From: Ignavibacteriales bacterium
Lineage (GTDB): Bacteria; Bacteroidota; Ignavibacteria; Ignavibacteriales; Melioribacteraceae
Direction of reading: 5' to 3'
Assembly: GCA_020061355.1 (NCBI GenBank)
Contig: JAGUYK010000046.1
Span: 97,213 to 161,212 of the forward strand
Length of the DNA: 64,000 nucleotides
A model generated the notes under the pieces. It saw only the letters and a list, made by a program, of their open reading frames with translations, did no database searches and was not told the origin of the DNA. How positions within the stretch are numbered: the first letter of the stretch is position 1; every line of letters starts with the position of its first letter. The translations under genes and the position numbers were made by a program. Below are positions 2,309 through 11,824 of the stretch, one piece after another.

Positions 2309-3823
2309 ATGGTTCTTAAAAAAATATTTTTCTTTTTACTCATAATTATATTTGCCTTTCCCTTTTGTAAAAAAGATGAATCACCAACAGCTCCTCAAAA
2401 CCACTTACCAAAGATTGAGAGTTTAAGTGCAAATCCACCAACAGTATTAATTAGTACAGAAACAACGTTGACATGTATCGCTACTGATGAAGATGGAGAC
2501 AATCTAACAATTACTTGGTCATCTAAAAGAGGTAAATTCTTAAATGGAAATCTTGGAATATCAGTTAAATGGCTTGCACCTTCAACTGCAGGAACTGATA
2601 CTATTAATGTGACTTTAAATGATGGTAAACAAACAGTAAAAGGTTTCCTGGAAATAAGTGTAGGAACAATATCAGAAATACCGGACTTACTAACACCAAC
2701 CAATAATGAAGTTGAAGTTTCACTTACTCCTACATTAACTTGGAAGGCAATTAGTAGTGCAATTAGCTATTCTTTACAAGTTTCTACCAGCAATACATTT
2801 TCTCCATTAGTTTTTAATCAGAGTGGTATAACAAATGTTAACCAGCAACTAAATGGATTGAATATAAACACAGTTTATTATTGGAGAGTTAATGTTACCA
2901 ATTTATTTGGTACATCAAATTGGTCAGGTATATTTTCCTTTCAAACTGTGGCACCACCACCCACGCCAGTTTTATTACTTCCAGTTAATAATGCAAATGA
3001 TATTTCTATATCTCCAACGTTGAGATGGAAACCAAGCACTGGTGCTACAAGTTATGAATTACAAGTATCCACCAATAATTCATTTATAGGATTTGCTTAT
3101 AACAAAAATGGTTTAACAAATGAAAGTCAACAAATCGCTGGATTAAGTAAATCGACGAAATATTTTTGGCGAGTAAGTGCAATAAATAATTATGGTACTT
3201 CCAATTGGTCAAGTGTATGGAGTTTTATAGCCAATTATGAACCATGTCCTCATATATCCAGTATCTCATATTTGGGGCAAATATATAATACAGTGCAAAT
3301 TGGTAATCAATGTTGGTTGAAAGAAAATCTTAATGTTGGGATAATGATAGATAACTTAAATAATACATCAAATAATAACCTAATTGAAAAATATTGCTAT
3401 AATAATGACACAACAAATTGTAATTTATATGGCGGTTTATACCAATGGGATGAAGCGATGGCCTACAATTTAATGATTGGTTCAAAGGGAATATGTCCTG
3501 ATGGTTGGCATATTCCGACGAAGACAGAATTTGAATCGTTGGCAGAGGCAATTAATCACAACGGAAATTCATTAAAAGCAATTGGGCAGGGTAACGGAGA
3601 AGGTGCTGGCAATAATACAAGTGGTTTTTCAGCTTTATTAGTTGGCTATCGGAAAAGTAATGGTAGTACTGATTATCTAAGAGATTATACTGGATTTTGG
3701 CGCTCTACTGATAGAAATGATACTTACGCATTAACAATGGTCTTGGGCAGCATGAATAGTGCTTTCATTTGGACAGGTCATACCAAAGATCAAGGATTTA
3801 GTATTCGATGCATTAAAGATTAG
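2309..3823 (+). CDS. FISUMP-domain lipoprotein with Ig/FN3-like repeats
   Basis: This is a 504-aa predicted lipoprotein exported to the cell envelope. Residues 1-20 form a hydrophobic signal ending at C20, followed by KKDES. An Ig/PKD-like domain (about 35-118) and two similar FN3-like repeats (about 122-212 and 216-308, each with a YYWRV or YFWRV strand) precede a FISUMP domain (Fibrobacter succinogenes major paralogous domain, about 315-504). That domain shows IGNQCWLKENLN, CPDGWHIPT and FSIRCIKD motifs. FISUMP proteins are surface or secreted proteins of unclear role. It is probably cargo, standing alone between the integrase terminator and a large hairpin. No Shine-Dalgarno is visible, as is common in Bacteroidota relatives. 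Confidence 0.8.
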   Translation: MVLKKIFFFLLIIIFAFPFCKKDESPTAPQNHLPKIESLSANPPTVLISTETTLTCIATDEDGDNLTITWSSKRGKFLNGNLGISVKWLAPSTAGTDTINVTLNDGKQTVKGFLEISVGTISEIPDLLTPTNNEVEVSLTPTLTWKAISSAISYSLQVSTSNTFSPLVFNQSGITNVNQQLNGLNINTVYYWRVNVTNLFGTSNWSGIFSFQTVAPPPTPVLLLPVNNANDISISPTLRWKPSTGATSYELQVSTNNSFIGFAYNKNGLTNESQQIAGLSKSTKYFWRVSAINNYGTSNWSSVWSFIANYEPCPHISSISYLGQIYNTVQIGNQCWLKENLNVGIMIDNLNNTSNNNLIEKYCYNNDTTNCNLYGGLYQWDEAMAYNLMIGSKGICPDGWHIPTKTEFESLAEAINHNGNSLKAIGQGNGEGAGNNTSGFSALLVGYRKSNGSTDYLRDYTGFWRSTDRNDTYALTMVLGSMNSAFIWTGHTKDQGFSIRCIKD

Positions 3824-3985: not shown

Positions 3986-4654
3986 ATGAAAGAAAAGCTT
4001 AAAAAAAAATATTACTTACATGGTCACGAAAGTGAACAATACAAGTTTATAAAAGGTACTTGGATATCAGAGTCTTACTATTTTGAGAAAGTTTTTGAAT
4101 TAGTTGAAAGTGAATTTAACAAATTCTTTAGGAAAGTTTATTCTAATAGCAAATCAAAAAAAGAAATTGAGTTAATCCTAATTGATTTATTATCCCATTT
4201 TGCATTGACTGTTTGGAATAGAATTAATAGCGAACCTATCTATTTAAGCTATTTAGAAAAAAAATATAATCCAGATTTTGATGAAATATCAGAAACAACA
4301 TTCAAAAGTTTGATTAAAGAAGAATTACTCTTAGGAAATGTTGTACTACTTAGTTTACTTTCAAAATCAAAGGAATTACAAAAAATTTTACAAAGTCCAT
4401 TCTTAAAAGGAAGACAAATAAAAGAAGAAGATTTGAAATTATACATTGAAGTATACAAAGAATATCTAAGTTTGAAGGACCAGGGAAAAACAGGTCATCA
4501 GGCGGCGATGAAACAAGCTGCGCGAAATATACTCATAAGAAATAAGGAAATAGATAGTAACAAAAAAGATAAAAGACTTGCCGAAAATACAACAAAGAAC
4601 CTTCCCAAAATAAAATCGATTATGGGAAAATCGACAAAATCGATTAACGAATAA
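3986..4654 (+). CDS. Hypothetical protein of the element (222 aa)
   Basis: I do not recognise this protein. It is rich in Lys and Glu and mostly predicted helical, with no signal peptide or membrane span. The C-terminal 60 residues are strongly basic (KNKEIDSNKKDKRLAENTTK-type), suggesting nucleic-acid binding. AGGTGATGT lies just upstream of the ATG. It sits between the branched hairpin at 3899-3975 and the structured leader at 4678-4803, upstream of the replicase operon, so a regulatory or replication-accessory role is possible but unproven. Confidence 0.65.
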   Translation: MKEKLKKKYYLHGHESEQYKFIKGTWISESYYFEKVFELVESEFNKFFRKVYSNSKSKKEIELILIDLLSHFALTVWNRINSEPIYLSYLEKKYNPDFDEISETTFKSLIKEELLLGNVVLLSLLSKSKELQKILQSPFLKGRQIKEEDLKLYIEVYKEYLSLKDQGKTGHQAAMKQAARNILIRNKEIDSNKKDKRLAENTTKNLPKIKSIMGKSTKSINE

Positions 4655-4840: not shown

Positions 4841-5302
4841 ATGTTACACCGCGAAAGTAAAAAACAAATCACACTAATTCCAACAAGAAGGCACCCCTTT
4901 GTTCATCAAGTACGACTTAATTTACCAACAGGGCCCAAATTCATTGGTAGATTAGATGAAGCTGGAGAAGGCACCTTTTATACTTCCCGAAGTCAAAGAC
5001 ATATTCTACGGATCTCAAATTCAATCGGATTGAACAAAGCTCTTCTCGAGGACGATTCAATTTTTTTCAATTGGATAGTTATTGACCTTGAAGGTCGGAA
5101 GCTATATGCGAGCCGTGAATATTTTCGTTCAAAAGGTCGGACCTATCGTTTTGCAAATGAATCGTTAGAACCCCAGGTCTTTATGCCAATTGATGAGTTG
5201 ACAATGAAAGCTGTCCGTGAGTTTGAAAAGGAACAACAAGAAAAGAAGAAGCTTGAAAGGGTCTTTGATAGGAGTAATTATGAACGCGTTTATTCCTTCT
5301 AA
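4841..5302 (+). CDS. Hypothetical protein, first gene of the replication operon (153 aa)
   Basis: I do not recognise the family. The protein has a beta-rich N-terminal two thirds (VHQVRLNLPTG, ILRISNSIG, WIVIDLEGRKLY stretches) and a charged helical C-terminus (about 118-145) rich in Glu, Lys and Arg. A strong GGAGGT ribosome-binding site lies 5 nt before the ATG. Its end overlaps the replicase start at 5280 by 23 bp, which implies translational coupling. Together with the leader structure, this suggests a DNA-binding or copy-control partner of the replicase; that role is inference. Confidence 0.7.
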   Translation: MLHRESKKQITLIPTRRHPFVHQVRLNLPTGPKFIGRLDEAGEGTFYTSRSQRHILRISNSIGLNKALLEDDSIFFNWIVIDLEGRKLYASREYFRSKGRTYRFANESLEPQVFMPIDELTMKAVREFEKEQQEKKKLERVFDRSNYERVYSF

Positions 5303-6518
5303 CCTTAATCTCGGTGCTGAAAAGCACCGGGATAAATATTACTTGATACTGTCAGCATTAACAAATCGAATAATATTTGATAAAACGATTAAAAAAAATT
5401 CGTTCGTTCCGGTTATGTCCAAAATATTGCATGACGTAATTAACAGCCGTTATAAGGAAAGAGTGAATGAATTAGTTGAGATGGGAATTATAGAAATTAA
5501 AGACCGTTATTGGGCAGGAATTATATCAAAGAGGTATCGCTTTCAGCCAAAATATAGAAATCAAAGTCTTAAGGCAGTTATAATAAATGACCCCAAAATA
5601 ATTGAACGAGTAAATGACCACAGAAGAAGAAAAACAGAGGCAATTCAAAAGCCCGAGCATTCATTCTTATTCAGAAACCTAATGGAAATAGAAATCAATT
5701 ATGAAGATGCAATAAAATATGTTGATGAAAATGTAAATGAGGAAACAAAAAAAAGTATATATAAAATAATGATTAATAATATCAAGGAGATTAAGTACAA
5801 ATATTATTGGGAATGTTCAACAACAGGAAGAATTTACAACAATATTACAAACCTGCCTCGAAAAATTCGAAAATTCCTACGGTGGCAAAAAAATCCTCTT
5901 GTCGAAGTGGATATAGCAAACAGTCAACCATTATTATTTAACATTCCAATTCAGAGATACATAAATAAAGATATCCAAGAATCAGATATAAGTTTATCAT
6001 TAGATATAGCTACTTATGTTACCACATTTTCAGATATAAAGCATTATGAAGATTTAACAACAAAAGGAATCTTTTATGATTATCTAATGGATTACTTTGT
6101 TAGAGGTATTGAACCGAGTGATTATTTGTTAGATGACTTAGGAATAGATGAACCGAGAGATGTTTTCAAAACAAGATTTTATGCAAGAGTATTTTTCTGT
6201 AAAGAATCTAACTTTTGGACTACAAACGAACGGGAACAATTTAAAAAACTTTTCCCAAATGTTGCCCAAATAGTATCCTATTACAAACAAGATAATCACA
6301 AAAACCTTGCAAATATACTTCAACAGGCAGAGGCAGAAATAATAATTGGTAAAGTTATCCCAAGAATTGCCGAAAAAAATATTTATGCGTTAACAATACA
6401 TGATTCCATACTTACACTTGAGGAGAGTGCGGAAACAGTAAGGGATATAATTGTTGATGAGTTCAAAAATCAATATGGACTAACACCTACAGTAAAAATT
6501 AAGAAGGGGGAAGAATGA
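5280..6518 (+). CDS. Divergent family A DNA polymerase-like replication protein
   Basis: The gene encodes a 412-aa protein starting at the ATG at 5280, with AGGAG at 5270-5274. The middle and C-terminal parts match the palm signatures of DNA polymerase I. A TTGRIY stretch (181-186) and RKIRKF (194-199) precede a motif A-like VDIANSQP with D211. A motif B-like helix has R293, K297, Y301 and F305 at four-residue spacing. LQQAEAEII (347-355) precedes a motif C-like IHDS with D375. There is no exonuclease domain. Residues about 20-95 could be a winged-helix DNA-binding region. It lies in an overlapping operon on an integrated element, so it probably replicates the excised form. Family assignment is by motif reading only. 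Confidence 0.7.
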   Translation: MNAFIPSNLNLGAEKHRDKYYLILSALTNRIIFDKTIKKNSFVPVMSKILHDVINSRYKERVNELVEMGIIEIKDRYWAGIISKRYRFQPKYRNQSLKAVIINDPKIIERVNDHRRRKTEAIQKPEHSFLFRNLMEIEINYEDAIKYVDENVNEETKKSIYKIMINNIKEIKYKYYWECSTTGRIYNNITNLPRKIRKFLRWQKNPLVEVDIANSQPLLFNIPIQRYINKDIQESDISLSLDIATYVTTFSDIKHYEDLTTKGIFYDYLMDYFVRGIEPSDYLLDDLGIDEPRDVFKTRFYARVFFCKESNFWTTNEREQFKKLFPNVAQIVSYYKQDNHKNLANILQQAEAEIIIGKVIPRIAEKNIYALTIHDSILTLEESAETVRDIIVDEFKNQYGLTPTVKIKKGEE

Positions 6519-6778
6519 CATATCTATGGCAGGAAGAAAGAGGGCAAAAATTCTATAGGGTTCAAACGGATGAAAAGGAAATTGCAAACAAGCTGAAAAG
6601 AAGGAACGGATTTAAATTGAGCGCATGGTCTATGAACGGTCATAAATTATGGATTTATACTTGCACGTTTTCAAGACCGGATATTGCAAAGAAAGTATTA
6701 AAATCAGTAACAGGTCAAAAGTTGAATATCGATTCTGAGGGCTTAATTTCTTTCGGTAAGTCTATTTCCTTGAACTAA
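6515..6778 (+). CDS. Small hypothetical protein coupled to the replicase (87 aa)
   Basis: The ATG overlaps the replicase stop (ATGA arrangement at 6515-6518), so the gene is translationally coupled and in the same operon. The protein is small, basic and unrecognised, with a compact alpha/beta pattern (KLWIYTCTFSRPDIAKKVL) and no signal peptide. Overlap and conserved reading support a real gene. A role in replication or partition of the element is possible. Confidence 0.65.
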   Translation: MTYLWQEERGQKFYRVQTDEKEIANKLKRRNGFKLSAWSMNGHKLWIYTCTFSRPDIAKKVLKSVTGQKLNIDSEGLISFGKSISLN

Positions 6779-7381: not shown

Positions 7382-8917
7382 ATGAAATTACTTTCCATAA
7401 TTATCTTACTTAACTCAATTAATCTTTTTTCACAGCATTTGATTTATACAACCAATAGATCAATTATTGAATGTGAAATTGATACTACAACTTTCAGCTT
7501 GGACAATATTACTTATAAACGTTACGATAGAGCAGGATATTTTCAAATGAAAAAATCTCAGATATTATTTATCAAAGATTTTAAAGGAAATTTTCTGTTC
7601 CCCAAAGAAGTGGTTGGCATTGAAAGTTCCAAGCGTTTACATTTGCCTAACTCAACGCACTACAGCAGGGATGAGAACAAAAAAGTATTTCCCAATATTG
7701 ATGCAGGACAAAAAGAAGGATACTCTATATGCAATGCTTGTTTTGATTTTAGTTCACCTTTACCTGATCAACAGATTGAAAATATATTAGCACAGCAGGC
7801 ACTTGTTGATACCAGACTATACTGTGAAATTTTGTATGAAGATAAGAGACTTGAACATGTCAATTCAGTTTTAAAAAAGGTTTTGTATAACTGGCCAGAA
7901 GAAAAGCGAGGTTTTAAATATCGAGTTCAGATATATAGAGGAGAACCGAATGCCTTTGCCATACCTGGAGGAAATTTAATTATTAGCGATGGTATGTTGG
8001 ATTTAATTGAATCTGATTTGGAATTAGAAGCTGTTTTGGCTCATGAGGTTGCACATGTTGAAAAAAGGCACCAATTAAGGCAGTATTATTTTATTCAAAA
8101 CCAAAAAACAATTGGTTTTATGGCAGGATTTATAAGTTTAATTTTTGCAAGAGCAGCTGGCGAAAAAGTTAGTGCTGAATCAATATTCAATCTCACTAAC
8201 TTGATTACAGATATTGTAGTAAATATTAGAAAAAACGGGTATTCCAGGGAGATAGAAGAGGAAGCGGACCTAATGGCTTTACTTTATTTCCAAAAACAAT
8301 CAATGTCATTAGTACCGATGAAGAATATTTGGGGGAAACTTGCAGATTACACTTTCAATCGTGGTAGTGATTTGTATAACACAAATGGCGACCATCCAAG
8401 TACTATGAAAAGAATTACACAAATTGAACAATCTGAAACTACAATACTAAAACAACCGATTATTTTCGAATGTCAGGAAAATATATCTGTCGACAAAACC
8501 AAAATAAAAGTTGTAGAAGTTTCTCCTCATTTCAATTTTGAAATAAAGGTAATTAACTTAATGCCATCATCAACAGAAAATAATCAAATGCAACTCAGTT
8601 TCATTGGTCATATTGATAATGAGTTAAGTACAAATTCATACAGAATAAAGGAAATTGTGTTGACTTCTGTAAAAAATAATATAGAGATTAAATTGGAGGG
8701 AAGTGAAAACTTCCTTCTTCCGAATTTATCAAGAAAGGAATATTTCTTTAAGTCCACTCTCGACTTTCAGAAAGCAAAAATTTTGAAATCTGTATTAGAT
8801 ACTCGTGCTAATATGGATCTAAAATTAAATGTAGAAAGAATTAATGTTGAAAGGAATGGAAAGATTGAAAATATTATTTATTCCGAAGTGAAGTTTTCTG
8901 TTAGAAAAATAATTTGA
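7382..8917 (+). CDS. Secreted M48-family metallopeptidase
   Basis: The gene encodes a 511-aa zinc metalloprotease with an N-terminal signal peptide (residues 1-18, ending FSQ). The zinc site is HEVAH (H221, E222, H225) with the third ligand E292 in an EEEAD motif, and GGNLIISDGML matches the conserved strand before the active site of M48 proteins. After the peptidase domain, residues from about 360 form a beta-rich region of unknown type. It is the last gene before the right end of the element and is separated from the replication operon, so it is likely cargo acting in the periplasm or at the cell surface. A terminator follows at 8990. Confidence 0.85.
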   Translation: MKLLSIIILLNSINLFSQHLIYTTNRSIIECEIDTTTFSLDNITYKRYDRAGYFQMKKSQILFIKDFKGNFLFPKEVVGIESSKRLHLPNSTHYSRDENKKVFPNIDAGQKEGYSICNACFDFSSPLPDQQIENILAQQALVDTRLYCEILYEDKRLEHVNSVLKKVLYNWPEEKRGFKYRVQIYRGEPNAFAIPGGNLIISDGMLDLIESDLELEAVLAHEVAHVEKRHQLRQYYFIQNQKTIGFMAGFISLIFARAAGEKVSAESIFNLTNLITDIVVNIRKNGYSREIEEEADLMALLYFQKQSMSLVPMKNIWGKLADYTFNRGSDLYNTNGDHPSTMKRITQIEQSETTILKQPIIFECQENISVDKTKIKVVEVSPHFNFEIKVINLMPSSTENNQMQLSFIGHIDNELSTNSYRIKEIVLTSVKNNIEIKLEGSENFLLPNLSRKEYFFKSTLDFQKAKILKSVLDTRANMDLKLNVERINVERNGKIENIIYSEVKFSVRKII

Positions 8918-9146: not shown

Positions 9147-9172
9147 GCACCGTCAAAACAACCAAAAATTCA

Positions 9173-9228
9173 ACGGAAAGGTGGCAGAGTGGTTGAATGC
9201 GGCGGTCTCGAAAACCGTTGTCCGGCTT
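9173..9228 (+). repeat. Right attachment-site repeat within tRNA-Ser
   Basis: This stretch is an exact 56-bp copy of 975-1030. It forms the 5' half of the intact tRNA gene. The recombination crossover must lie somewhere inside it but cannot be placed more finely because both copies are identical. Confidence 0.9.
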
Positions 9229-9263
9229 TCGTCGGACCGGGGGTTCGAATCCCCCCCTTTCCG
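9175..9263 (+). tRNA. tRNA-Ser (anticodon CGA)
   Basis: The 89-nt gene folds as a class II tRNA. Acceptor GGAAAGG pairs with CCTTTCC, followed by discriminator G. The anticodon stem GCGGT/ACCGT holds loop CTCGAAA with CGA at positions 34-36, reading codon UCG. The variable arm is long (TGTCCGG/CGGAC region), and the T-arm GGGGG/CCCCC holds TTCGAAT. CCA is not encoded. The 5' half is the right att repeat. Confidence 0.95.
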
Positions 9264-9264
9264 C

Positions 9265-9624
9265 ATGTATTTTACTCACATTCTAAAAAGTCTGAAGGAT
9301 AATAGTTTTTATTATGGTTCCACTTCTAATCTTGAAAAGAGATTGGATGAACATAATAAAGGTAAGGTCAAGTACACTAAAGGTCATCTTCCATGGCGAC
9401 TACATTATTTTGAAAAATATAAAACCCGATCAGAATCAATTCGGAGAGAAAATTTTTTCAAATCAATTAGTGGTTATAATTGGTTAAAAGAAAATAAAAT
9501 AACTGACCGGGGTCCTGCCGAAGGCATCCCTACGGGAGAATCCCCCCCTTTTTCGCCAAATAAATTTATTAATCAGGTGATTTATCTAAAGGATTTTTTC
9601 AATTTCAAAATAAATTTTGTCTAA
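9265..9624 (+). CDS. GIY-YIG domain endonuclease-like protein
   Basis: The protein is 119 aa, with a GIY-YIG nuclease domain over residues 1-80. Motifs are FTHILKS at the GIY position, FYYGSTSNL at the YIG position, RLDEHN, and a final NWLKENK helix. The start is the ATG at 9265, because the domain begins there; it is only 2 nt after the tRNA discriminator base. There is no room for a ribosome-binding site after tRNA 3' processing. The C-terminal 35 residues are not part of the domain, run across a GC-rich hairpin (9505-9553) resembling the tRNA 3' arm, and overlap the next gene on the other strand. Small proteins of this family are common, with poorly known function. Confidence 0.75.
   Translation: MYFTHILKSLKDNSFYYGSTSNLEKRLDEHNKGKVKYTKGHLPWRLHYFEKYKTRSESIRRENFFKSISGYNWLKENKITDRGPAEGIPTGESPPFSPNKFINQVIYLKDFFNFKINFV
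9505..9553 (+). repeat. tRNA-Ser 3'-arm-like sequence and hairpin within the GIY-YIG tail
   Basis: GACCGGGG (9505-9512) and GAATCCCCCCCTTT (9538-9551) match 9235-9242 and 9247-9260 of tRNA-Ser. Between them, a 25-nt insert of two small hairpins (TGCC/GGCA and TCCC/GGGA) replaces the T-loop bases. The outer GGGG/CCCC pairing is followed by TTTTT, so it may also serve as a terminator. Confidence 0.5.
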
Positions 9625-10002
9625 TGTAGATTTTTCTTCTTTGTATTCTTCATATTTGGTCATACACCAATTGTAGTCAACCAAATTTTTATCTGCAACA
9701 CTTTTTAACCAATTCAGTTCAAAAATGTGTAATGCTTTATCTGAGAATCCGATTCTAATTCCGTCAATTATAAATGAATTTGCAATTTCAGAATTTGAAA
9801 AAACAGGAGGATCTTCTATTATATATTCATTTTCCAGAAGTTCCGACAAAGCTCCGTCGCAAAATTCCTTATTAAATCCTAAAATCTTTGCCAATTTTCT
9901 GAGATTATTCTTCTCCGGTTCAGAAATGGTTTTGTCTTTACCAATAAGTATAAGCAATCCCTTAAAATAGTTGCTTCTATCCTGAAATGTCATAACAATC
10001 AT
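9586..10002 (-). CDS. Hypothetical protein (138 aa), possibly TerB-like
   Basis: This is a helical, soluble protein of uncertain family. The pattern of a short domain beginning FKGLLILIGKDKTISEPEKNNL, with a later cluster of acidic residues and helices, is reminiscent of TerB-like helical domains, but the match is weak. It is convergent with, and overlaps by 39 bp, the tail of the GIY-YIG gene. Two ATG codons (10002 and 9993) could serve as starts. Confidence 0.6.
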   Translation of the reverse strand: MIVMTFQDRSNYFKGLLILIGKDKTISEPEKNNLRKLAKILGFNKEFCDGALSELLENEYIIEDPPVFSNSEIANSFIIDGIRIGFSDKALHIFELNWLKSVADKNLVDYNWCMTKYEEYKEEKSTLDKIYFEIEKIL

Positions 10003-10088
10003 TATTTTTATTTCAGCACTAAATTATAAAATAATTTCTAATTTTAAGTCAATTAAAAATAAGTATTATTTTAATGTGAGAATCTGAA

Positions 10089-11663
10089 ATGGAACGAGCA
10101 AAAGAAAATGAAACAATTTGTTATAATCCTGCAACTGGGGAAGAGATTGGGAGATCAAAAATTCATTCTGTTGATGAATTAAGAAATATTATTGATCGAG
10201 CAAAGACGGCACAGATTGAATGGGGAGCTTATCCGGTTAAGAAACGAATTGAAATCGTTAAAAAAGTTAGAGAATATATTGTTAATAATGCTGATGAAAT
10301 GTCCGAAACGATCTCTAAAGATAATGGTAAAACCCGTGTTGAAGCTCTAGCTACAGAAGTTCTTCCTGCCTCTATGGCAATTTCATTCTATTGTTCCAAC
10401 GCTAAGAAGTTTCTTGCAGAGAAATTATTAAGAGGCGGGAATTTCTTTCTGATAAATAAGCGAAGTAAAATTATTCGAATACCTTATGGTGTTGTTGGAA
10501 TTATATCTCCATGGAACTATCCTTTCGCAATTCCATTCTCAGAAGTAATTATGGGTTTGCTTGCCGGTAATGCAATAGTTTTGAAAACGGCAACTGAAAC
10601 ACAATTAGTGGGATTACAATTAAAGAAGGCAATTGAATATGCAAATCTGCCTGAAGGGCTTTTTAGTTTTGTTAATCTTCCCGGAAAGGTTGCCGGAGAT
10701 GAAATGTTAAGATTGGGTATTAATAAATTATTTTTTACAGGTTCGGTCGCCGTAGGAAAATATTTAATGGGAAAAGCTTCGGCAACATTAACTCCGGTTT
10801 GTTTAGAACTTGGCGGAAACGATGCAATGATTGTTTGTGAAGACGCAGATCCATATCGTGCAGCTATGGGAGCATTATGGGCAGGATTTCAAAACTCAGG
10901 ACAATCATGCGGCGGTGTTGAACGAATATATGTCCACGAAAACATTTATGATCAGTTTATGGCAATTCTGAAAGACAAAATTGATAACCTAAATGTTAAC
11001 TATGGCAGCGATTTTAATTCTCAAATGGGATGTATGACAACCACCCGGCAAGTTGATACGGTTAATCTTCATATAGAAGATGCACTAAAAAAGGGCGCAA
11101 CTATTTATGCACAATCCCAAATTGTGAACTCGACTATAAAAAACTTTATTCCGGCTACAGTATTGACAAATGTAAATCATGATATGCTCGTTATGAAAGA
11201 TGAAACATTCGGTCCGGTTGTTGGAGTAATGAAATTCAAAAATATTGAAGATGCAATAACTCTTGCAAATGATTCATACTTAGGGTTAACTGGTTCGGTC
11301 TGGTCACGGAATCAGAAATATGCCGAAGGTGTTGCTAAGAAAATTAAAGCCGGAGAAGTTACTGTAAATGATCATTTGATGAGTCACGGATTGGCAGAAA
11401 CTCCATGGGGCGGATTCAAAGAATCAGGAATCGGAAGAACTCATGGCAAATTAGGATTTGATGAAATGACCCAACCGATGGTAATTGTAAAAGATCTATT
11501 ATCATTTACAAAGAAACAGTTGTGGTGGCATCCATATAGTAAAAAAATATATGATGGTTTGAAGGGACTAATCAATCTACTTTATAATAAAAGCTTATTA
11601 CTTCGTATAAAATCGGTCGGTAAACTCATAAAGATTCTAGCAAGAATGTTTTACAAAGAGTAG
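10089..11663 (+). CDS. Aldehyde dehydrogenase family protein
   Basis: This 524-aa NAD(P)-dependent aldehyde dehydrogenase oxidises an aldehyde to its acid. Visible signatures are SPWNYPFAIP (substrate and cofactor channel), FTGSVAVGK (nucleotide-binding turn), ELGGND (general-base Glu), GQSCGG (catalytic Cys) and ETFGPVVGV. The last 60 residues form a basic, partly hydrophobic extension beyond the usual end. Similar tails anchor fatty-aldehyde dehydrogenases to membranes, so a long-chain aldehyde substrate is plausible. It stands alone and no operon partner is seen. Confidence 0.93.
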   Translation: MERAKENETICYNPATGEEIGRSKIHSVDELRNIIDRAKTAQIEWGAYPVKKRIEIVKKVREYIVNNADEMSETISKDNGKTRVEALATEVLPASMAISFYCSNAKKFLAEKLLRGGNFFLINKRSKIIRIPYGVVGIISPWNYPFAIPFSEVIMGLLAGNAIVLKTATETQLVGLQLKKAIEYANLPEGLFSFVNLPGKVAGDEMLRLGINKLFFTGSVAVGKYLMGKASATLTPVCLELGGNDAMIVCEDADPYRAAMGALWAGFQNSGQSCGGVERIYVHENIYDQFMAILKDKIDNLNVNYGSDFNSQMGCMTTTRQVDTVNLHIEDALKKGATIYAQSQIVNSTIKNFIPATVLTNVNHDMLVMKDETFGPVVGVMKFKNIEDAITLANDSYLGLTGSVWSRNQKYAEGVAKKIKAGEVTVNDHLMSHGLAETPWGGFKESGIGRTHGKLGFDEMTQPMVIVKDLLSFTKKQLWWHPYSKKIYDGLKGLINLLYNKSLLLRIKSVGKLIKILARMFYKE

Positions 11664-11824
11664 TTTTAGGTAGAATCTGAGAATCCCGCAAAGTCTTCAA
11701 GTCTTTATATCACATCGTTATTGTTCTAAAGCAGAATGGTGACAAATATCACTGCTTATCCTTTCATAAAAGATTAAAATTGTCCAGGTAATTAAAAAAA
11801 ATACTCATCAGCCGAAAGAGAGCT

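Follow-up and report, generated by a model that had tools for sequence, protein, structure and literature searches.

The tRNA-Ser element

The window (the whole stretch of DNA that was analysed, 64,000 nucleotides from an Ignavibacteriales bacterium) contains an 8.2-kb element bounded by copies of a tRNA gene sequence. A direct repeat (958–1030 and 9156–9228) contains a 56-bp exact block, the left copy of which (975–1030) corresponds to the 5′ part of tRNA-Ser, while the right copy (9173–9228) lies within an intact tRNA-Ser (cga) gene (9175–9264). The repeats are spaced 8,198 bp apart, and all features given for the element are on the + strand. The first-pass annotation had placed a polymerase-like gene on a tRNA-integrated element, and the exact repeat of tRNA-Ser (cga) at both ends agrees with this placement. 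No empty site was found in three of the four other same-genus genomes, where the right flank is not syntenic.

The element carries seven main ORFs. The first encodes a tyrosine integrase (1123–2133; Phage_integrase, E 4.9e-35; phrog_1, E 8.7e-73). Two genes are carried as cargo, one for a protein with Fib_succ_major and fn3 domains that looks secreted by eye (2309–3823) and one for an M48 family peptidase (7382–8917). Between them lie ORF222 (3986–4654; 222 aa), ORF153 (4841–5302; 153 aa), the gene for a 412-aa family A polymerase-like protein, here termed POL (5280–6518), and ORF87 (6515–6778; 87 aa). POL starts at ATG 5280, which is preceded by AGGAG, and ends with the stop codon 6516–6518; an in-frame alternative start, GTG 5217, is found upstream. 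The 3′ end of ORF153 overlaps POL by 23 bp and POL overlaps ORF87 by 4 bp. Relatives of ORF153 are present in other elements, relatives of ORF87 occur in loci L109 and L094, and ORF222 relatives precede ORF153 in L106 and, when a round of profile searching was added, in L109. An ORF153 profile gave no match below E 0.8 to PDB sequences, and no viral relatives of ORF153 were found. Pfam recognizes no helicase or replication family in the seven ORFs, and a crude pattern finds no Walker A motif in them save one chance-like match in ORF87.

Active-site residues of POL

POL is composed of an N-terminal domain (residues 1–140) and a C-terminal part that contains the hairpin, palm and fingers (177–412). 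The hairpin carries R184, the arginine of a TGR motif (codon 5829–5831). Motif A, D211-I-A-N-S-Q216-P (5910–5930), contains the presumed catalytic D211, and Q216 by alignment takes the steric-gate position. Motif B, R293...K297...Y301...F305 (6156–6194), lies on a model helix formed by residues 293–305. It is followed by Q348-x-x-E351 (6321–6332) and then by motif C, H374-D375-S376 (6399–6407), located at the turn between model strands 371–373 and 376–380. A script check found R184, R197, D211, Q216, R293, K297, Y301, F305, Q348, E351, H374, D375 and S376, so that the Pol I palm signatures earlier claimed to lie in order within 412 aa are all present. The earlier statement that the protein has no exonuclease agrees with Pfam, which finds no such domain in the window protein.

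A pattern scan located the POL family in 16 genome loci and 11 viral contigs. The window protein was aligned with 23 of these 27 loci, omitting L036, L038 and L041 (apparent duplicates by score and length) and the frame-split L031. Mean column identity across the resulting 24 proteins is 17%, yet 11 residues are identical in all of them: R184, D211, I212, N214, S215, Q216, Y266, K297, Q348, E351 and D375. Such invariance at this level of divergence places the motifs beyond chance. Position 293 is R in 21 proteins, K in two and a gap in one, and position 305 is F in 19, L in four and C in one; H374 is kept in 23/24 and S376 in 22/24, and position 267 is D in nine and E in ten of the 24. The R-K-F/Y-F spacing of the family is that of R754-K758-F762-Y766, which we take to be the motif B numbering of E. 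coli Pol I.

The fifth residue after the motif A aspartate corresponds to E710 of E. coli Pol I, the steric-gate glutamate. This residue is E in the PolA of the window genome itself (ADYSQIE, L052), in a phage PolA (DYHFHE) whose motif A aligns ungapped to that of POL, and in the divPolA2 protein P0004. Throughout the POL family (24/24) it is Q, and the position of F762 (301 in POL) is F or Y in 23/24. With Q in place of the steric-gate glutamate the choice of sugar may differ, and judged by the alignment sugar selection in the POL family may be altered relative to Pol I.

Predicted structure

An AlphaFold2 model of POL was built from the 24-protein alignment (pLDDT 85.6, pTM 0.83). Ahead of the hairpin the model contains helices 105–123, 125–135, 141–151 and 155–169. 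D211 is positioned near the end of strand 205–212 and D375 in the turn of a hairpin formed by residues 371–380, helix 293–305 is the O-helix by its motif B, and a long helix spans residues 341–365. When the model was searched against the PDB with Foldseek, the best 50 of 412 matches (E up to 10) were all family A DNA polymerases or fragments of them, with a best E of 3.5e-6 and modest TM-scores of 0.23–0.44 by query length. This match speaks for the palm fold expected from the first-pass annotation, and the order of the strands together with the fold match suggests that D211 and D375 may come together in the palm. Among viral models (BFVD) the best two matches extend over nearly the full length at a TM-score of about 0.7, and one of them is named putative DNA polymerase I. 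A Barba31A protein appears at rank 12 and a Zamilon protein at rank 37 (E 6.9e-4); the replication protein of the Zamilon virophage is presumably a TV-Pol.

The N-terminal domain is modelled with similar confidence (residues 1–140, pLDDT 86.4) as a strand, three helices, a hairpin and further helices. Most of the structures that it matches in the PDB are transcription regulators or DNA-binding proteins of the Rep type, which we take to be winged helices; 4pql and 5kbj (a Rep–DNA complex) occupy ranks 1 and 2, and with a best E of 0.066 none is significant. Of the winged-helix N-terminus proposed earlier, the order of secondary structure elements is therefore plausible but the fold match is not significant, and the domain is described here as plausibly winged-helix-like on the strength of the model.

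This arrangement bears on the view that POL is an initiator whose polymerase fold serves only to bind DNA or nucleotide, catalysis having been lost. The order of elements in the N-terminal domain is like that of winged-helix initiators, with Rep matches that are non-significant, and a precedent exists in RRM-only Pol-like proteins in which one or both catalytic aspartates are lost, as described in Rice 2023 (PMC10061031). POL homologues have, in contrast, kept both aspartates and the lysine in 24/24 and the arginine in 21/24 divergent proteins. This is hard to explain without catalysis, and we consider such an initiator very unlikely.

Profile comparisons and family databases

Single-sequence searches with POL in Pfam, NCBIfam and the PDB gave nothing useful, and neither did a profile search of PDB sequences. 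Pfam gives no PF00476 match for POL at E up to 10, the only match being DUF2115 at E 0.35, and none among the 24 aligned members at E up to 0.1. In PHROGs, ten of the 24 members match phrog_4756, of unknown function (best E 2.1e-8), and the window protein itself has matches of unknown function only. One member each matches Rep_1 and a phage replication-initiation PHROG, both weak hints of replication.

Comparison of profiles gave a closer connection. The hhalign profile of the POL family (39 members; all E values quoted are for single comparisons) aligns with divPolA2 at a probability of 96.9 (E 1.4e-10) over 171 columns, with the TGR of the hairpin, the motif A aspartate, RxxxK and the motif C aspartate in register. 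A set of PolA and three huge-phage-type polymerases gave 80.8 (E 1.3e-5) over the fingers and motif C, and a smaller mixed set gave 77.0 (E 2e-5) with motif A covered. These scores, for divPolA2 and for the widened PolA sets, bear out the relation to family A polymerases that had been read from the motifs. The three huge-phage-type polymerases alone gave 53.1%, and no significant link was obtained with 13 close PolA sequences or with a single divPolA1-candidate protein. MAP_030 of LMM01, picked from its context as a TV-Pol and represented by a shallow alignment, gave a non-significant probability of 0.9; it was not matched when the LMM01 record was searched with the 24-protein alignment, and by eye its motifs LQRIE and HDG are similar to those of POL. 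The same alignment found nothing in the divPolA2 record MG592441 or the divPolA1 record MW353176, so the apparent link between POL and divPolA2 is one of profile to profile only. Taken together, the predicted model, the Foldseek matches and the profile alignment support a family A palm and fingers fold for POL, on a mobile element.

Distribution of POL homologues

POL is sparsely distributed. A homologue is found in nine of 296 genomes of the phylum and a profile search was positive in 17 of 395 genomes, the window genome being included in both counts; among 58 near-relative genomes it was present in the window genome only, and it occurs in none of the four other same-genus genomes. The genome loci from the pattern scan belong to Pontibacter, Rufibacter, Hymenobacter, Solirubrum, Gemmataceae, Laterigemmans, Verrucomicrobia and other Bacteroidetes. 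A first viral scan with a single protein revealed no relatives. With the window protein as tblastn query, homologues were found in six of 50,697 phage records (595–735 kb, each from an uncultured phage) and in two of 72,556 plasmid records, both from Hymenobacter. LR756501 and LR756503, both among the six phage records, have the same length and the same match, and locus L010, from the same-phylum genome G124, is identical to L027 (Hymenobacter jeongseonensis) over 1,548 bp.

Among the homologue loci examined, Pfam recognized integrase genes in five (L011, L020, L025, L027 and L029). Integrases beside some homologues, and the absence of POL from the four same-genus genomes, were counted as evidence of mobility. 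Two genomes contain multiple POL-family matches, G124 on contigs C22, C4 and C21, and G513 at two places on C1; several matches per genome are expected of spreading elements, and some of these matches are pieces of one gene. In L016 (1393–3453) the homologue is 686 aa long and bears at its C-terminus NUMOD1 and a weak GIY-YIG match, resembling a homing endonuclease. The notion that homologues always lie on tRNA-integrated elements does not hold, as they are also present in the 595–735-kb phage records and on Hymenobacter plasmids, and of the 23 homologue loci scanned five contain a tRNA gene.

The gene position behind ORF153

No relatives of ORF153, ORF87 or ORF222 were found by phmmer beside the POL homologues L003–L045, and none of ORF153 by profile. 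ORF153 itself occurs in five of 296 phylum genomes, seven of 58 relatives and ten of 165 genomes of the order (window genome included in each). Eleven loci with an ORF153-like gene were fetched and compared, and POL was absent from all of these stretches (phmmer for all 11, profile for nine). An integrase related to that of the POL element is encoded in eight of them (L094, L095, L102, L103, L105, L106, L109 and L110; phmmer E 2.4e-30 to 9e-116) and is absent within the fetched stretches of L093, L096 and L104. Four of six loci examined have attachment repeats, in each case at a gene for tRNA or tmRNA, spaced 12,266 bp at tmRNA in L094, 8,366 bp at tRNA-Ser in L106, 7,230 bp at tRNA-Phe in L109 and 6,853 bp at tRNA-Arg in L103; none were found in L093 and L110.

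Replication genes recognized by Pfam follow ORF153 in four of the 11 loci. In L106 this is a BT4734-like_N/PriCT_1/D5_N/DUF5906 gene and in L105 a BT4734-like_N/PriCT_1/AAA_25 gene, each with a 4-bp overlap and a related integrase; both loci are in the same genome (G011), and BT4734-like_N is assumed to be an AEP-type primase domain. ORF153 is followed in L093 by a 73-aa gene and then AAA_25 with HTH, and in L104 by two small genes and then Phage_rep_O and DnaB_C; a weak tape-measure match nearby indicates that L104 may be a prophage. The remaining seven (L094, L095, L096, L102, L103, L109 and L110) have no Pfam-recognized replication gene behind ORF153. L094 has an ORF87-like gene and then a 533-aa protein with a P-loop and Walker B by eye. 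In L109, L110 and, after a small gene, L103, ORF153 is followed by members of one family of 292–300 aa that are 40–75% identical, and the order in L109 (ORF153, the gene at this position, ORF87) is as on the POL element. Members of this family (L109, 3288–4166; L103, 5471–6364; L110, 2383–3285) have no Pfam match; the family is perhaps a new initiator. A clean exchange, with both a related integrase and a recognized replication gene, is seen in L105 and L106 only. Exchange of genes in place is an argument that has been made for TV-Pol (PMC2579912). The ORF153 loci may amount to a natural experiment on the swapping of unrelated replication proteins at one gene position.

Defence genes are frequent cargo of small integrative elements, and this favours to some extent a role for POL in anti-phage or anti-DNA defence, as a polymerase carried as cargo. 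ICETh2 points the same way, as its element-borne primase-polymerase, which is unrelated to POL, is reported to be defence-related and dispensable for replication of the element (PMC7693054). POL, however, sits behind ORF153 in an overlapping operon, and none of the six element proteins scanned with PADLOC (the integrase was not among them) gave a match at E up to 0.1. A defence role is in our view improbable. By analogy, the dispensability of the ICETh2 enzyme would also count against a replication role for POL.

Function of POL

On balance POL is probably, by a small measure, a compact family A replication protein of the 8.2-kb tRNA-Ser element, most likely a primase-polymerase. This reading draws on the conserved active site, the fold match, the attachment repeats, the layout of the operon and the replication genes behind ORF153 elsewhere. 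What holds it back is that a related integrase is present in only two of the four loci with recognized replication genes, and that a plasmid homologue is accompanied by an annotated initiator. The polymerase and replication role given in the first-pass annotation is thus retained in part: the family A fold and the context favour it, but support for replication as such comes from gene context and is narrow.

The plasmid in question, of Hymenobacter tibetensis (L008), has along with the homologue genes annotated for replication initiation and for ParA, KilAC and a recombinase. Since it has an annotated initiator, the homologue is not its only replication candidate, which speaks against POL replicating every carrier. 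In the phage setting, the POL homologue of L003 (the 595-kb record) and of two IMG/VR contigs, L035 (38.6 kb) and L037 (341 kb), is followed by a gene for a 428–429-aa protein with a 4-bp overlap. The two form a tandem pair of family A polymerase genes (5989–8435 in L003), the second of which matches PF00476 in L003 (E 1.2e-19). The position of POL beside another family A polymerase in the 595-kb phage and the two viral contigs was counted against the replication reading; the tandem pair suggests that one polymerase might make primers and the other extend them. Near the pair of L035 an AAA_3 gene (9606–11702), which we take to be MoxR-type, is split by a stretch with Hint and homing endonuclease matches and appears intein-like. 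A conserved gene of 440–446 aa is found upstream of the homologue in L007 (4185–5525), L004 and L040; the L007 copy weakly matches DUF7833 (E 6.6e-4) and for the other two there is no match with E up to 0.05.

The adjoining second family A gene in L003, L035 and L037 and the plasmid initiator would also fit a family A enzyme with another role, whether in RNA synthesis or in repairing the DNA of the element or filling gaps in it. The invariant Q at the steric-gate position points in the same direction, as does the profile kinship to divPolA2, for which repair or an RNA polymerase is proposed by its authors (PMC11348598). Set against this, the aromatic residue at 301 is kept in 23/24, no other replication gene is recognized on the POL element, and four of the 11 other ORF153 loci have replication genes behind ORF153. 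We regard such a role as unlikely, if less so than defence.

If POL is the replication protein of the element, the integrase would excise the element as a circle. The winged-helix-like N-terminal domain, perhaps together with ORF153 or ORF87, would then bind element DNA. With two metals held by D211 and D375 and the dNTP bound by R293 and K297, the palm and fingers would synthesize a primer on the element or elongate one. Helicase and replicase of the host would presumably complete the copy, and the circle would reintegrate.

A wider proposal is tentative and distinctly less probable than the replication role itself. POL may represent a separate family A lineage (GR...R, DIxNSQP, RxxxK, LQxxE, HDS) that unites in one chain a winged helix for origin binding and a polymerase capable of self-priming, with an unusual Gln gate, and that replicates very small tRNA-integrated elements without a helicase of their own. 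It would be one of several interchangeable modules behind ORF153, along with AEP-D5, AEP-AAA_25, perhaps the 292–300-aa family, and others. If this is true, a new primase-like family A lineage exists in Bacteroidota elements, huge phages and plasmids that is unnamed in Pfam, NCBIfam and PADLOC, and the old prediction of priming by TV-Pol becomes testable in a very small system.

Comparison with known polymerase systems

Literature searches covering integrative-element polymerases of family A, TV-Pol/TVpol and divPolA revealed, by titles and opening lines of abstracts among the papers listed, no paper on this element family, and the passages of PMC7824862 contain no mention of the POL family. 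The suggestion of a little-described replication module nevertheless has to be narrowed, since the kind is already known from TV-Pol, PolA-SSB primases and divPolA1/2.

TV-Pol proteins are 400–600 aa long without an exonuclease, and have a hairpin arginine, two palm aspartates and RxxxK; their elements carry integrases or resolvases, and their hosts are bacteroidetes, planctomycetes and verrucomicrobia (Iyer, Abhiman and Aravind 2008, PMC2579912). POL is similar in its size class, in lacking the exonuclease, in the hairpin arginine, palm aspartates and RxxxK, in its integrase-bearing element and in its host groups. The arginine, aspartate and RxxxK hallmarks are present across the POL family (R184, D211, D375 and K297 in 24/24; R293 as 21 R and two K). 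A conserved aspartate in the fingers and a thumb cut down to two antiparallel helices are also described for TV-Pol; the comparable observations here are D or E at position 267 in 19 of the 24 proteins and the four model helices ahead of the hairpin. The KilAC and recombinase neighbours of the Hymenobacter tibetensis homologue also recall TV-Pol neighbourhoods (PMC2579912). In contrast, no D5-like helicase is fused to POL or present on its element, although only some TV-Pols have one, and the N-terminal domain is winged-helix-like whereas some TV-Pols are all-helical there (PMC2579912).

divPolA2 of barbaviruses and of Vibrio and Aeromonas phages is about 430 aa and combines a novel N-terminal domain with a palm (PMC11348598). 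POL resembles it in size, in this arrangement and in the alignment of the catalytic residues. The two differ in motif A and motif C, which are DFKAFE (E at the fifth position after D) and FDE in P0004 and DIxNSQP and HDS in the POL family, and in setting, divPolA2 being found in phages and POL on an integrative element.

The PolA-SSB primases and CCPol-MP of SCC elements (PMC10061031, PMC7581432) share with POL a family A core, a recombinase-bearing element and an operon with small genes. The gene for their OB-fold partner stands between the polymerase and a helicase, whereas on the POL element no helicase is recognized and no SSB or OB-fold partner was identified. CCPol keeps the equivalents of E710 and F762 as E174 and F225 (PMC7581432); at the steric-gate position, E174 in CCPol, the POL family has Q216 in 24/24. 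Pipolins, integrative elements with a polymerase of their own, piPolB (PMC10061031), are similar to the POL element in this respect, but the pipolin enzyme belongs to family B. As judged from sequence, POL appears to be a divergent family A polymerase of the TV-Pol/divPolA kind, formal membership of TV-Pol being left aside, and is not categorically new, given its likeness to TV-Pol (2008) and, by profile, to the phage divPolA2 (2024).
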